From Fusobacterium varium (GTDB taxonomy: Bacteria > Fusobacteriota > Fusobacteriia > Fusobacteriales > Fusobacteriaceae), in the NCBI GenBank assembly GCA_002356455.1, contig AP017968.1, positions 1,426,001 to 1,490,000 of the forward strand: 64,000 nucleotides of DNA, given 5' to 3'. Position numbers and translations under genes: made by a program. How positions within the stretch are numbered: position 1 is the stretch's first letter; each line of letters starts with the position of its first letter. Positions 56,086 through 63,062 of the stretch are shown here, in pieces. Below the pieces are notes generated by a model that did not search any database, had not been told where the DNA came from, and was given only the letters and a program-made list of their open reading frames with translations.

Positions 56086-57030
56086 ATGGAACTAACAGAA
56101 AAAGAAAAAGAGATTTTAAAAATACAAGACAATAGAATAGATTTTTATTTTAAGATAGAAAATGCAGTAATAGATAATGATGAAGTTTTTAGCAATATAT
56201 ATGAAAGCCACCTTTATATAGTTTTATCAAGATTTTGTAATAATGGAAACATAGCATATCCTTCATATAATACACTTGCTAAATTATGCTATTGTAGTAA
56301 AAGAAAAGTTATTGAAACAATGAATAAACTAATAGAGAAAGGTTTAATAAATAAAGTTAATAGAACTATGAATGGAAATGATAGAAAAACTAATCAAAGC
56401 AATATTTATACTATAAATAATATAAAGCAATATATTGCATTAAACAAAAATACAGAATCTTTTCAAATTCAGCATAAAGATAATGTATCAACAGATAATT
56501 TAAATAATTCTAATAAGGTTGTGAATGATATACACCAAGGTAGTGCACCATATGCACTAGGGGTAGTGAATGATATGCACCAGGATAGTGAACAATATGC
56601 ACCCAATAAAGAAATAAATATAAATAACAATAATATAAATAAAAAGAGAGAAAAAGAGTCTATCTCTCATGTAAATGATAAGGAATTGAATAATTTAAAA
56701 AAATTAGATGAACTAAAAAATATAATTTGTACCTCTATAAAAAAAAGTAGAAAAGAATTAGATTCTGTATTTCCTAATGCTTTATACAAAAATTTAGATC
56801 TTGATTTACTCATAGAAAAAATAAAAGAATCTTCTTATTTACAAGGTTTAAATAAAATACCCTTTATTTCAATATTTACAACAAAAGATGGAATAAATAA
56901 GATTTTATTGGGGTATTATGCTGACTATAAAGATAATTCAAAAATAATTGATATAAACAAATTAGCTAAAAATAAAGATAATGGATATAGTAATGACTTT
57001 AAAGATTTAATTGATAATGTTTTAATATGA
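56086..57030 (+). CDS. HTH replication-initiator-like protein of a mobile element
   Basis: A 314-residue protein with an N-terminal winged helix of the HTH_36 type (IYESHLYIVLSRF, YPSYNTLAKLCYCSKRKVIETMNKLIEKGLI). An Asn-rich linker contains two similar segments, VVNDIHQGSAPYA and VVNDMHQDSEQYA, before a C-terminal helical domain. This layout, with a DnaC-like gene overlapping the stop, is common in plasmids, phages and integrative elements, where the pair initiates replication. The Asn- and Lys-rich composition differs from the housekeeping genes, consistent with transfer. Confidence 0.78.
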   Translation: MELTEKEKEILKIQDNRIDFYFKIENAVIDNDEVFSNIYESHLYIVLSRFCNNGNIAYPSYNTLAKLCYCSKRKVIETMNKLIEKGLINKVNRTMNGNDRKTNQSNIYTINNIKQYIALNKNTESFQIQHKDNVSTDNLNNSNKVVNDIHQGSAPYALGVVNDMHQDSEQYAPNKEININNNNINKKREKESISHVNDKELNNLKKLDELKNIICTSIKKSRKELDSVFPNALYKNLDLDLLIEKIKESSYLQGLNKIPFISIFTTKDGINKILLGYYADYKDNSKIIDINKLAKNKDNGYSNDFKDLIDNVLI

Positions 57031-57053
57031 AAGTATTGACAAAGGAGGTACTT

Positions 57054-57812
57054 ATGAAGAAATGTGAATTTTGTGGAAAAGAATATATAAAAAATCAAAT
57101 AAATTTATTGCCTAAATCAATAAGAGCAAATCTAGAATTCATACCAAATTGTAGTTGTCGAATTGAACAAGATATGAAAATTCAAAATGAGAAGTGGGAA
57201 GAAGATTTAATAAAATCTCGCTTAAAAAAGTATTCTAATGCATCAATTATAAAAGAAAATATTAGTAACTTTAGATTTGAAAATACAAATATCAACATGG
57301 ATAAAACTGATATACATGATAGACACTTAAGAATTGGTTTAAAATTTGTAACTGAATTTTTAAAAAATAAAAATATGAAAGGAGGAATATATTTTTATGG
57401 TTCCGTTGGAACAGGAAAAACTTATACAACAGCATGCATAGCAAATAAATTAATTGAAAATTCTTATACAGTTTTAATTTTAAATTTAGGATTATATTTT
57501 TTAAAATTAAGAAGTGAATGGGCAGAGGGAGAACTAGAAACTTTAAAATTAGTAGAGAAATGTGATCTTTTGATAATAGATGATTTAGGAACTGAAAAAG
57601 TTAGTGAGTTTGTATTAGAAAAAACATTTAATTTAATTGATAGAAGATGTGTAGCAAAAAAGCCCATGATAATTTCTTCAAATTTATCTCTTGATGAAGT
57701 AGCAAAAACATATAATGATAGAATTGCAGATAGAATAAAAGAAATATGTGTTCAAGTTAATGTTGAAGGAAAAAGTAAAAGAAAGCCGATTCAAGATTGG
57801 CTTATAGCATAA
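57054..57812 (+). CDS. DnaC/IstB-like helicase loader ATPase
   Basis: A 252-residue AAA+ protein. An N-terminal zinc-ribbon-like segment (CEFCGKEY with CSC further on) precedes the ATPase core with Walker A GSVGTGKTYT, Walker B LLIIDDLGTE, and the sensor segment MIISSNLSLDEV followed by DRIADRIKE. Such proteins load the host helicase at an element's origin. The frame opens at 57027, overlapping the previous stop, but AAAGGAGG places the start at 57054. It works together with the preceding HTH protein. Confidence 0.85.
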   Translation: MKKCEFCGKEYIKNQINLLPKSIRANLEFIPNCSCRIEQDMKIQNEKWEEDLIKSRLKKYSNASIIKENISNFRFENTNINMDKTDIHDRHLRIGLKFVTEFLKNKNMKGGIYFYGSVGTGKTYTTACIANKLIENSYTVLILNLGLYFLKLRSEWAEGELETLKLVEKCDLLIIDDLGTEKVSEFVLEKTFNLIDRRCVAKKPMIISSNLSLDEVAKTYNDRIADRIKEICVQVNVEGKSKRKPIQDWLIA

Positions 57813-57959: not shown

Positions 57960-58026
57960 GTATCTAGCAAGCTACTCAAATTTGCCGTACAAATTTAAAG
58001 CTTGTTAGGGGATTCCCCTAATACCC
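57960..58026. other. candidate oriT
   Basis: Directly upstream of mobC lie two nested dyads. CAAGCT...AAATTTG (57969-57985) is mirrored by CAAATTT...AGCTTG (57991-58005). This is followed at once by the palindrome TTAGGGGATTCCCCTAA (58006-58022) and TACCCC. Inverted repeats next to a G+C-richer tract, immediately before mobilization genes, are the usual form of MOBP-type transfer origins. The rest of the 278-base gap (57813-58090) shows no gene. Confidence 0.55.
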
Positions 58027-58090
58027 CTTTTATAATTTTTATATTTTTATTGAAAAATTATAAAAATAAAAAGATAAGGAGATGATACAT

Positions 58091-58393
58091 ATGGAGAAAA
58101 AAATTACTGTTCGATTAAAAGAAACAGATAGACTTAAATTAAGAGTTCAAGCTGAAGAATTAAACATAAGTCAATCTGAAATGATTCGAGAATTAATAAG
58201 AAAAAATTTTTGTGAAGATATAAAAGAGCATAATATATTGATTAATGATTTGAGAATTTTATTAAGAGGATTAACTAATAATATAAATCAAATTGCAAAA
58301 AAGGTTAATAGTAAAGTATTAATTAATGAAATAGAAGAGGCTAAAAAAATTCATGACGAGGTATATAAAATATGTCAATTATTAAAGTTGTAA
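58091..58393 (+). CDS. MobC-like relaxosome accessory protein
   Basis: A 100-residue protein with an N-terminal ribbon-helix-helix (KKITVRLKETDRLKLRVQAEELNISQSEMIRELI) and a MobC-like helical C-terminus (LRGLTNNINQIAKKVN). It should bind near oriT and help the relaxase. ATG 58082 is adjacent to the AAGGAG site, so ATG 58091 is the likely start. Its end overlaps the relaxase start by 22 bases. Confidence 0.85.
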   Translation: MEKKITVRLKETDRLKLRVQAEELNISQSEMIRELIRKNFCEDIKEHNILINDLRILLRGLTNNINQIAKKVNSKVLINEIEEAKKIHDEVYKICQLLKL

Positions 58394-59319
58394 AGAAAAG
58401 TGGAAAAACATTTGCTTCTTTAAAAAAAGTTTTATCATATGTTGGGAAAAAAGCCTCTGAAACATTTGGATTAAATTGTAATAATAATTTTAAAAATGTG
58501 GCTAAAGAGTTTATAGAAACAAAAAAATTTTTTAATAAAGAGGAGGGGAGGCAATATAGACATTATATCCAAAGTTTTAAGCCAGGAGAAATTACTAAAG
58601 AAAAAATTATGGAACTATCAATCAAATGGACAGAAAAAGTTTTTCCTGGACATGAAGTTTTTATTGCGGTTCATAATGATAAAGAGCATTTACATACTCA
58701 CTTCATAGTAAATTCAGTTAATTTTGAAACAGGGAAAAAGCTTCACGAAAATAGAAATAATTTGGATATGAAAAAGAAAATAAATGATGAAATATGTTTA
58801 GAATATGGAATTAATAACAAACAAGAGTTAAAAAAAGAAGGCGAAATAATAACATATGATAAAAATAAATATCAAATAATAAAGAAAGGAGCTGATATTA
58901 CAAGATTAGCAGAATCACTTTTAAATGTTATTCAAGTTGCAACTTCTAAAAAAGATTTTTCAAATAAAATGAAAAACTATGGGTATGAAGTTGAATGGAA
59001 TGAAAACAAAACTCATATTGTATTCAGTGCAGATCCAAGTATTTTAAAAGGAAAGAAAAACAAATTTAGACTAGCTAATTTACAGAAAATATTTAATATT
59101 AGTGATTTTTCAAAAGAAAGATTACTAGAGATATTTGAAGAAAACTCTAGACAAAGTGAATTAAAAAAACTAGATGAAATTGCTAAAAACATGATGTTTG
59201 ATGAAGTGTATAAAAGAGAAAAAGAAATAAAAACTTTAAATTCTATCTCAAAACCAAAGATCACTTCAAAAAAATCATGGAGAAATAAAAATACATCTTC
59301 AGAAATAGATTTTAAATAG
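58372..59319 (+). CDS. MOBP-type relaxase
   Basis: A 315-residue relaxase/mobilization nuclease. The metal-binding triad is H106, H108 and H110 in HLHTHFIVNSVNF, with a likely catalytic tyrosine in the N-terminal LSYVGKK. It nicks DNA at oriT and pilots the strand into the recipient using another element's conjugation machinery. It is shorter than many relaxases, with no primase or helicase domain, as expected for a mobilizable rather than self-transmissible element. Confidence 0.88.
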   Translation: MSIIKVVKKSGKTFASLKKVLSYVGKKASETFGLNCNNNFKNVAKEFIETKKFFNKEEGRQYRHYIQSFKPGEITKEKIMELSIKWTEKVFPGHEVFIAVHNDKEHLHTHFIVNSVNFETGKKLHENRNNLDMKKKINDEICLEYGINNKQELKKEGEIITYDKNKYQIIKKGADITRLAESLLNVIQVATSKKDFSNKMKNYGYEVEWNENKTHIVFSADPSILKGKKNKFRLANLQKIFNISDFSKERLLEIFEENSRQSELKKLDEIAKNMMFDEVYKREKEIKTLNSISKPKITSKKSWRNKNTSSEIDFK

Positions 59320-59337
59320 TAAATAGGAGGAATCAAA

Positions 59338-60094
59338 ATGAACTTAAAAAATTTAAATAAAAATAGTACTATAAATACTATAGAAAAAAAAAGAAAACAG
59401 CATTGCAAAATCAGTTGCTAAATGGGAATATGAAAATAAAGAAAAAATAAAGGATAATAAAGATTCAAATTCAGTTGAAATTTCTAAAGAGGTAATCAAA
59501 AGTCTTGATATAACACGACAAAATATTGAAACTAAAACTCTAATAGATGAACTTAAAAAATCTACCTTATCAGTGATTGATTCTATGAATAAATTTTCAA
59601 GTTCAATCCCTATAATGTTAGAGCAATTAAATACTATAACAGAACACCTAGAATTTGAAGAGTTTTTAAATAAATTAAAAATAATAGAGGATTGTTCAGT
59701 TTATATTTTACATTATAAAGACAGTTTAGAGATAGAATTAAAAAAAATCATAGATAACTCGAACAATGCTCTTAAAACCTTAGAAGTAAAAACAAATAAT
59801 CATATTAATAATATTTGTGAAAAAGGATTTGAAAGAATTAAAAATAAAGAAGAAAAATATTTAGAATTTAGCAAAGTTGTCATATTAACTCTTTTTACGT
59901 TTCTTATGGTATTATTATTTTTATTTTCAAAATATCACTCTAAGCTATCTAATATGGAAAAAACCATAGAAAAAAATAATCAAGAGATTTCTTTATTACA
60001 CAATATTTTACTAGAAAATAAAAAATATTGGCTAGACAAAGATAATTACAATATTTATATTAAAAGTAAAGAAAAAAAATCTAATAATAAGTAA
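59338..60094 (+). pseudogene. mobilization-associated membrane protein gene interrupted by an A9 frameshift
   Basis: A proper start (AGGAGG, seven bases, ATG at 59338) opens a frame that ends after 27 codons at 59421. The adjacent frame, open from just after a run of nine A (59384-59392) to 60094, continues as a plausible protein (NSIAKSVAKWEYENKEK and onward). It includes a membrane segment near the end (VVILTLFTFLMVLLFLF). Removing one A would join them into a product of about 250 residues. Position after the relaxase suggests a MobB-like anchor protein. It may be a broken gene, a phase-variable gene, or one read by slippage on the A run. Confidence 0.7.
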
Positions 60095-60103
60095 AAATAA
60101 TAT

Positions 60104-60140
60104 AAAAACAGAGTATATTTCAAAAATACACTCTGTTTTT
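60104..60140. terminator. bidirectional terminator
   Basis: AAAAACAGAGTATATTT and AAATACACTCTGTTTTT form a long stem between the mobilization genes and the convergent restriction-modification gene. Confidence 0.8.
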
Positions 60141-60300: not shown

Positions 60301-62973
60301 TTATCTAACTAATTCACTATAGAGTTTCATTAAATATGATACACATTCTTCTTCATTTCCAAATTCCCATTTTTTACCATAAGCTTCCCATACAGCTTTA
60401 TCATTTTCTTGATGAGCTTTTCTCAAATCTATTGGCATAAAAGTATCATCATATAAATCTGCATAGCTATCATTAGGATATTTTTCTCTTATATCTAAAA
60501 TATTTTGTCCTGCCTTTTCTAATTTTTCTTTCATTTTATTATCTAGTTCAGGAAATGGAAAATTATTATAAACAACTGATACAGAATATCGGTAATCACT
60601 TTTCATTCTTCCTGCAATAGCTCTTACCCATGCCATATGAACAGAAGAAGTTAGTATAGAAAACTCTAACTGCCCTGCATCAGATAGTAATATAACTTGA
60701 TTTAGAGCTATTGTAGTTTTATCTATAAAACCAATAGGAATATATTTTCTTTTCTCACTACTTACTCTAGGAATTATCAAAGCTTTCTCTGGATTTCTTC
60801 TATCTTCAAAAAGAGTTGGGGTATCAGCTAATTTAATTGTTGCTTTTCTATCACTATTCAATCTAAATTCTCTTACTTTTTTTACCCTTTCAGATACTAA
60901 AGGCATTTTTCTTAATTCTGATATAGAAACGTCTACAAGCCATAAAACATATCTTGGCTTTTTACTTATAAAGTTATCTCCTCCAACTAGTTTTTTTATA
61001 TATTTTAGAGCTTGTGGTTCTTTTAACTTAAATTCTTCATATTCTTCAGGTTCAACCTTTAAAAAATTCCCATCTATCGGAACATTTCCATCTTCCATTT
61101 TTAATAAATTTTGAATGTGATTGGTACGTCTCTCTATAAATACATCTTCTGAATTTATTAAATATCCATTAATATTTTTTGCTTCGATAACTTCTCCATT
61201 CGCCAAATATATTTTTTTACTTTCTATACTATTTTTTTTATTAGAAAAACCTATAACAACACAATGAACAGCAGCTTTTTCTTTAGCTTCATTATCCCAT
61301 TTAAATGTTCTATATCCAAAATCTATTTTACACTCATTTTTATCAAGAATAAGTTTCCACAAAATTCCGACTTGTTCTCCCTGAGTTATTGAATTAGTTG
61401 ATACAAAAGCTATTTTTATATTAACATTATTTTTAGCCATAAAACTTGCTTTATAAAACCAGGCAGTTATATAATCTAAAGTTCCTATTTTCATTTTTTT
61501 AGGGAAAGTTGTTTTTAAATCATCTTTTTGTTCAGGAGACATAAATTTTTTTCCTATAAATGGTGGATTTCCCAAGATATAATCTACATTTTCCCATTCA
61601 ACTCTTAAAGCATTTCCGTTTATTATATTGGCATTTTCTTTTATCGGAAAATCTATTATATTTTGTCCGAAAAAATTGCTTACTTGTCTATCCATTAGGT
61701 GTTTCATTAAAAGTAAAGAAATTTTAGCTATTTCACAAGCAAAAGTTTCATATTCTATTCCATAAAACTGGTCTATATGTACCTTTGAACTTATATCAAA
61801 TAAAGAAAGTTGAGATGTAGATTTTAAAAACTTTAAAATCTCAAATTCTAGTTCTCTTATTTTTTGATAAGTTAAAATTAAGAAATTTCCACTTCCACAA
61901 GCAGGATCGAGAAATTTTAGGTTAGAAATCTTTTGATGGAATTCCTCTAATTCTTTACGAGTTGACTTTGCTTTCTCAAATTCTTTATAAAGTTCATCAA
62001 GAAATAAAGGTTTTATAACTTTCATTATATTTTCTTCAGACGTATAATGAGCACCTAATTCTCTTCTCTTTTTTTGATCCATTACTCCTTGAAACATAGC
62101 TCCAAATATCGCAGGACTAATTCTACTCCAGTCAAATTCGCAACATTCTATTAATAACTCTCTCATTTTTTTATCGAATATAGCTGGTGGTAATTGCTCT
62201 GTAAACAAATTTCCATTAATGTATCTGAATCTATTTAATTCTGTTGATAAGTTTTTCATTCTTTTTTCTACTGGAGTGTCAAGAATATTGAATAACATCA
62301 TAATTCTCATTGCTAAATCACTACCATCTTCTGCAGATGTTCTTACATAATCCTCAAAACTATCTTTCTCAAAAATACCTGTATCATCAGCAAAAAGACA
62401 AAATAAAATTCTAACTAAATATACCTCTAAAGAATGTTCCTCATATCCATATTCTTTTAAAAGATCATGAAGTTTTGCCATTTTATATGAAGCTGTTGTA
62501 TTTAATTCTATTTCGTTTTTTTCTTCAAATTTTTCTTGATATCCTGCCACAATTCCAAAAATTCGGATATGATTTTTTAACTGACTAACTTTAAATGATT
62601 TATATTTTATGTCTTTTTTAAGATTATAAACTTCTATTTTATCAAAATCACTAACCATTACTAGTTCAGGCTTTTCTTCTGGCTTTAAAGCATGAACATA
62701 ATCCATAGCTTGACTATATGCTTTTGCAAGTGATTTCCCTTTAGATTTCATCTCTATTAAAATTTTTGCAGGTATAAAATAATCAATATATCCAATACTT
62801 CCATCATTTAAAATTATTTTATACTCATGTAATCCATCTCTAAAATCTACCCCAAAAACATTCATTAAATCTTTTTCAAATGTTTGAGCATCTTGTCTTT
62901 CATCTCCATTATTTTTTCTCCAAGTATTTTGAAAAGCAATCGCTCTAGTTTCTATTTCTGACCAAGTTAACAT
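60301..62973 (-). CDS. MmeI-like type IIG restriction-modification enzyme
   Basis: A 890-residue single-chain enzyme. The N-terminal nuclease has D64-x9-E74-M-K76 (GYIDYF to LIEMKSKGK), the same spacing as the MmeI D-x9-E-x-K site. A helical linker follows, then the gamma-class adenine methyltransferase core with DPACGSGNFL and NPPFIG. The target-recognition domain and C-terminal helices make up the rest (RYSVSVVYNNFPFPE is typical). It both methylates and cuts its recognition sequence, which cannot be read from the protein. The start is ATG 62973, after a weak AGGG site. It lies inside the inferred mobile element, as cargo or a stabilising system. Confidence 0.9.
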   Translation of the reverse strand: MLTWSEIETRAIAFQNTWRKNNGDERQDAQTFEKDLMNVFGVDFRDGLHEYKIILNDGSIGYIDYFIPAKILIEMKSKGKSLAKAYSQAMDYVHALKPEEKPELVMVSDFDKIEVYNLKKDIKYKSFKVSQLKNHIRIFGIVAGYQEKFEEKNEIELNTTASYKMAKLHDLLKEYGYEEHSLEVYLVRILFCLFADDTGIFEKDSFEDYVRTSAEDGSDLAMRIMMLFNILDTPVEKRMKNLSTELNRFRYINGNLFTEQLPPAIFDKKMRELLIECCEFDWSRISPAIFGAMFQGVMDQKKRRELGAHYTSEENIMKVIKPLFLDELYKEFEKAKSTRKELEEFHQKISNLKFLDPACGSGNFLILTYQKIRELEFEILKFLKSTSQLSLFDISSKVHIDQFYGIEYETFACEIAKISLLLMKHLMDRQVSNFFGQNIIDFPIKENANIINGNALRVEWENVDYILGNPPFIGKKFMSPEQKDDLKTTFPKKMKIGTLDYITAWFYKASFMAKNNVNIKIAFVSTNSITQGEQVGILWKLILDKNECKIDFGYRTFKWDNEAKEKAAVHCVVIGFSNKKNSIESKKIYLANGEVIEAKNINGYLINSEDVFIERRTNHIQNLLKMEDGNVPIDGNFLKVEPEEYEEFKLKEPQALKYIKKLVGGDNFISKKPRYVLWLVDVSISELRKMPLVSERVKKVREFRLNSDRKATIKLADTPTLFEDRRNPEKALIIPRVSSEKRKYIPIGFIDKTTIALNQVILLSDAGQLEFSILTSSVHMAWVRAIAGRMKSDYRYSVSVVYNNFPFPELDNKMKEKLEKAGQNILDIREKYPNDSYADLYDDTFMPIDLRKAHQENDKAVWEAYGKKWEFGNEEECVSYLMKLYSELVR

Positions 62974-63062
62974 CAAATCACCCTATTTTTAAATAATCGT
63001 TTGTTTTTATTAAATCACAATCTTTCAATGATAAATTTTACCTAATTAAAATATTACAGTAA

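Follow-up and report, generated by a model that had tools for sequence, protein, structure and literature searches.

A nine-adenine run splits the third gene of a mobilization operon in Fusobacterium varium, probably through a recent slip

The window analysed here, a 64,000-nt stretch of the F. varium chromosome, carries a mobilization operon whose third gene is divided between two reading frames at a run of nine adenines. We think it probable that a recent change from A8 to A9 inactivated, or nearly inactivated, this gene in an element that is losing its mobility. Decay is the favoured reading because the homologues of the gene are intact, because the tyrosine integrase gene is split as well, and because a parallel A8-to-A9 change is found in one copy of an insertion sequence (IS) in the same genome. 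On this account, an A8 run near the start of the gene would have gained one A via replication slippage, recently enough that the 234 codons downstream still lack a second lesion. Translation from the strong start would then end after 27 residues, and the full-length protein would be absent or made in traces only, via polymerase slippage. In an element already on its way to immobility, losing a transfer gene would be of no cost to the cell.

The split gene and its homologues

The preliminary description of this locus, made from the letters alone, had proposed a well-formed start at 59338, and an AGGAGG does stand 7 nt upstream of this ATG; several homologous operons likewise have AGGAGG or GGAGG 3' of their relaxase gene. 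Frame 0 runs from the ATG through the nine A, whose coordinates we confirm, to a stop codon at 59419-59421 (Table 1). In the neighbouring frame, no stop codon interrupts the 234 codons between the run and the TAA whose last base is 60094. The longest open frame among 3000 composition-matched Markov sequences was 88 codons, and the neighbouring frame is thus a real coding frame, as had been claimed. One A fewer does yield a single product: A8 or A11 predicts a protein of 251/252 aa, and A7, A9 and A10 predict 36, 27 and 37 aa, respectively. The first in-frame start codon of the shifted frame is GTG 59573, and the G+C content by codon position of the stretch before it (59393-59572; 0.37/0.27/0.12) is close to that of the relaxase gene (0.33/0.24/0.15), so this stretch looks coding. 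The identification of the product as a coiled-coil membrane protein encoded by a mobilization gene also held, since it combines a coiled coil with one predicted transmembrane helix and follows MobC and the relaxase as the third gene of the operon. A single-sequence structure model of the protein contains long helices only, at low confidence (pTM 0.28).

Table 1. Positions of the split gene, its operon and neighbouring features (window coordinates unless stated)
Feature	Position	Strand	Basis
Replication-initiator-like (HTH_36/DnaD) and DnaC/IstB-like ATPase genes, upstream of mob operon	56086..57812	+	
mobC-like gene (ribbon-helix-helix / MobC)	58082..58393	+	Pfam MobC, E=1.2e-5
MOBP-type relaxase, apparently intact, HNDKEHLHTH motif	58372..59319	+	Pfam Relaxase, E=1.1e-32
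Shine-Dalgarno AGGAGG of split gene	59325..59330	+	Direct reading
Frame-0 ORF of split gene, 27 aa, premature stop	59338..59421	+	
A9 run, site of frame loss	59384..59392	+	
Rest of gene in shifted frame: coiled coil, one transmembrane helix, C-terminal K(Y/F)W	59393..60094	+	
Predicted transmembrane helix VVILTLFTFLMVLLFLFS	59876..59929	+	Translation; modelled helix, pLDDT about 90
Terminator-like hairpin ending mob operon	60104..60140	.	17-pair stem and T tail
MmeI-like type IIL restriction-modification enzyme, element cargo	60301..62976	-	All five MmeI Pfam domains
Tyrosine integrase, in-frame TAA	L037 14218-15273 = G000:C1 1490218-1491273, just past window end		

A relaxase search returned related operons across the Fusobacteriota and on plasmids of Fusobacterium and Cetobacterium. 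At 14 loci, a further gene comes after the relaxase gene or overlaps it, and its product combines a coiled coil, a single transmembrane helix and a K(F/Y)W motif at the C terminus. These 14 syntenic homologues, all from Fusobacteriota, were aligned; each is one uninterrupted frame, and none is split at an A-run. A profile built from them matched the downstream piece of the window's gene with E=1.2e-5 (best of 200 shuffles, 3.9), and the split protein is 17-24% identical to the homologues. Searching 98 genomes of the phylum with the profile returned the same loci, again with open frames; the stops counted in the window's match and in one other appear, from their coordinates, to lie where the match overruns the ends of the ORFs. 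The pFN1-type third mob gene was found, likewise unsplit, in 15 Fusobacterium plasmid records. In pPA52, an additional 133-aa gene lies between the relaxase and third mob genes (L058 4350-4751), which is absent from its close relative pFN1. Neither Pfam nor NCBIfam holds a family model that names the third mob protein, and the split gene therefore belongs to a family of mobilization proteins that has no name in these databases. By analogy, its product probably serves the relaxosome as an accessory protein, anchored in the membrane and with a coiled coil, and the copy in the window is a broken relative of this family rather than a working member.

No close copy of the element was found by protein search among 60 relatives, plasmids and viral contigs, by relaxase search of genome contigs and viral contigs, or with a DNA pattern that allowed 6-12 bases at the run, applied to the same genome and viral contigs. 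We infer an ancestral run of A8. Were substitutions to fall at random in the downstream frame, about 0.07 of them would produce a stop codon, and the chance of finding zero nonsense codons at 5% divergence is 9%; the lack of a further lesion in this frame accordingly bounds the event to the recent past and says nothing more. Continued use of the gene, or a true run of A8, would predict an open downstream frame equally well.

The element and its integrase

The operon of the split gene is part of an integrated mobilizable element in the chromosome. The order of genes is mob operon, restriction enzyme, regulator, small HTH gene and integrase, and from this order the integrase appears to belong to the same element. 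It reads FDKK*MYITHSYQR where its homologues, most of which are 350-380 aa in one frame, read through (for example, FENKKININKSYQR and FDKKTLRINKSYQR). The TAA is directly followed by ATG, and it is conceivable that reinitiation there gives a two-chain integrase. The integrase stop could be of independent origin; lesions in two mobility genes fit with an element that is losing its mobility.

Several further features of the element and its surroundings were recorded. Upstream of mobC, a G+C-rich hairpin at 58003-58023, TGTTAGGGGATTCCCCTAATA, is followed by CCCC and is a possible oriT. At two other loci (L011 and L012), an N-terminal fragment of a similar MmeI-like enzyme lies directly 3' of the third mob gene. 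The element directly adjoins a prophage (L037 15442-20000 and L038) that has an intact integrase of its own, and the close relative G001 lacks the entire block of roughly 53 kb (L095), such that the site may be an insertion hotspot. A search for direct repeats that would define the ends of the element gave nothing above AT-rich noise. The element is absent from the relatives G001 and G002, neither of which yielded an exact empty site.

Run-length variation elsewhere in the genome

An IS91-like insertion sequence present in about 48 near-identical copies in this genome (L129-L176; for example, C1:214500-216000) offers a ready measure of homopolymer slippage inside one genome. The 48 copies fetched are 98-100% identical to the query copy, with substitutions at a mean of 0.0065 per site per copy. 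At a run within the coding sequence, 47 copies have A8 and one has A9, and in the latter the transposase is split into two parts that lie in different frames and are joined at the run. A non-coding run is A7 in seven of the 48 copies and otherwise A8, and no other internal indels were seen in about 62 kb of aligned IS copies. These variants indicate that a change of run length is an ordinary event in this genome and implies no switch. Changes from A8 to A9 here are thus ordinary mutations or, less probably, assembly errors. Since such frameshifts arise in IS copies in the ordinary course, an out-of-frame poly(A) run should be taken with caution, as weak evidence of a switch, in AT-rich fusobacterial genomes.

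We also surveyed 444 kb of genome stretches, in which 205 A8 and 21 A9 runs were counted over both strands. Two homopolymer-linked gene breaks were confirmed in this sample, the split mob gene and the one IS copy; the remaining candidates from a looser frameshift scan, run without a Shine-Dalgarno requirement, were judged on inspection to be starts of genes or to lie antisense to long ORFs. The sample contains eleven further A9 runs within ORFs that do not disturb the frame; six of these runs lie in genes that have a clear family match, and murD, ksgA and the genes for a PhoB-like regulator and a phosphotransacylase are among the genes that carry in-frame A9. Within the window, A9 runs are about eight-fold rarer than expected (four observed, 33 expected from dinucleotide shuffles), in agreement with published selection against slippery runs.

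Alternative readings and comparison with known systems

A sequencing or assembly error, with a true run of A8 and an intact gene, is an unlikely explanation of the split. Homopolymers are the usual site of such errors and the downstream frame has no other lesion, as this reading would have it. However, the assembly, in three contigs, is clean at homopolymers, and two confirmed breaks among so many A8 and A9 runs make systematic homopolymer error unlikely; an isolated error at this one run is conceivable. The in-frame A9 runs of murD, ksgA and the PhoB-like regulator also speak against error, and the nonsense codon of the integrase is not of the homopolymer-length type. We infer that the A9 change is present in the DNA rather than in the assembly alone. 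The gene might still work at a reduced level through transcriptional slippage, with enough of the mRNA carrying A8 or A11, a reading that we regard as unlikely too. In its favour, the run at the frame break has the at least nine A of a slippage-prone run, and the downstream frame is intact. Bacterial A9 runs may be prone to slippage, and disrupted genes can be rescued in this manner (PMC1088944; PMC4256274; PMC3017870). Yet single-base insertions outnumber deletions at A-runs in E. coli and Buchnera (PMC5574713), and the commonest product, A10, leads to a dead end of 37 aa, so that rescue needs a deletion or a gain of two; the homologues, moreover, have no conserved run at which to slip. The direction of slippage varies with polymerase and context (PMC6260861), and the argument from insertion bias is therefore not absolute. 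Since A9 runs are known to slip in other bacteria, some full-length protein in trace amounts is plausible. That the run acts as a throttle, with rare A8 or A11 transcripts giving a trickle of full-length membrane protein, seems improbable; if it did, the element would be mobilizable at low frequency while remaining nearly silent for its host.

Phase variation, in which reversible changes of run length within the population would make the gene switchable under selection, we likewise hold to be improbable. Run-length change does happen in this genome, but housekeeping genes carry A9 in frame and such a run is thus no mark of switch genes here, a frame-breaking run occurs at the equivalent place in none of the homologues, and no selective reason for switching a third mob gene is known. 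Very improbable is a functional product in the form of a shorter protein of 173 aa starting at GTG 59573, with the 27-aa ORF as a leader: the ORF 59573-60094 is open, but it has no ribosome-binding site upstream, the 60 preceding codons in the same frame have coding composition, and homologues begin directly after the relaxase gene or overlap its end. Programmed ribosomal frameshifting at the run is hardly credible, for while the heptamer A AAA AAA is present in the zero frame, the favoured -1 shift leads to the 37-aa dead end and a +1 or -2 shift would be required, and the predicted folding of the 90 nt 3' of the run is no more stable than that of shuffled sequences (z=0.31). The preliminary description had left phase variation, slippage and decay side by side; among these, decay by replication slippage is the one we retain, and we found nothing positive for phase variation or for transcriptional slippage.

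The closest comparison for the split gene is with the third gene of pFN1, pPA52 and their relatives, annotated as 'hypothetical protein', which occupies the same position after a MOBP relaxase preceded by mobC and shares with the window's copy the coiled coil, the single transmembrane helix and the C-terminal K(F/Y)W. These homologues are unsplit frames, whereas the window's copy is split at A9. RSF1010 MobB and ColE1 MbeB are small proteins with an accessory role in mobilization whose genes accompany that of a MOBP relaxase, and the window's protein is likewise small and encoded beside such a relaxase; unlike members of the MobB/MbeB family, it has no match to that family in Pfam or NCBIfam. 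With respect to the run itself, the poly(A) genes of Blochmannia and Buchnera similarly lie in AT-rich genomes and combine one poly(A) indel with an otherwise open frame, but in those genomes the long runs are kept across strains and species and rescue has been demonstrated (PMC3017870), whereas the gene described here is an accessory gene seen in one strain. Citrobacter rodentium tssM1 also has an A-run followed by a premature stop, with the remainder in another frame. In tssM1, however, the run is A11, insertions restore the frame and both products are needed (PMC4256274), whereas the run described here is A9 and the usual insertion of one A does not restore the frame.
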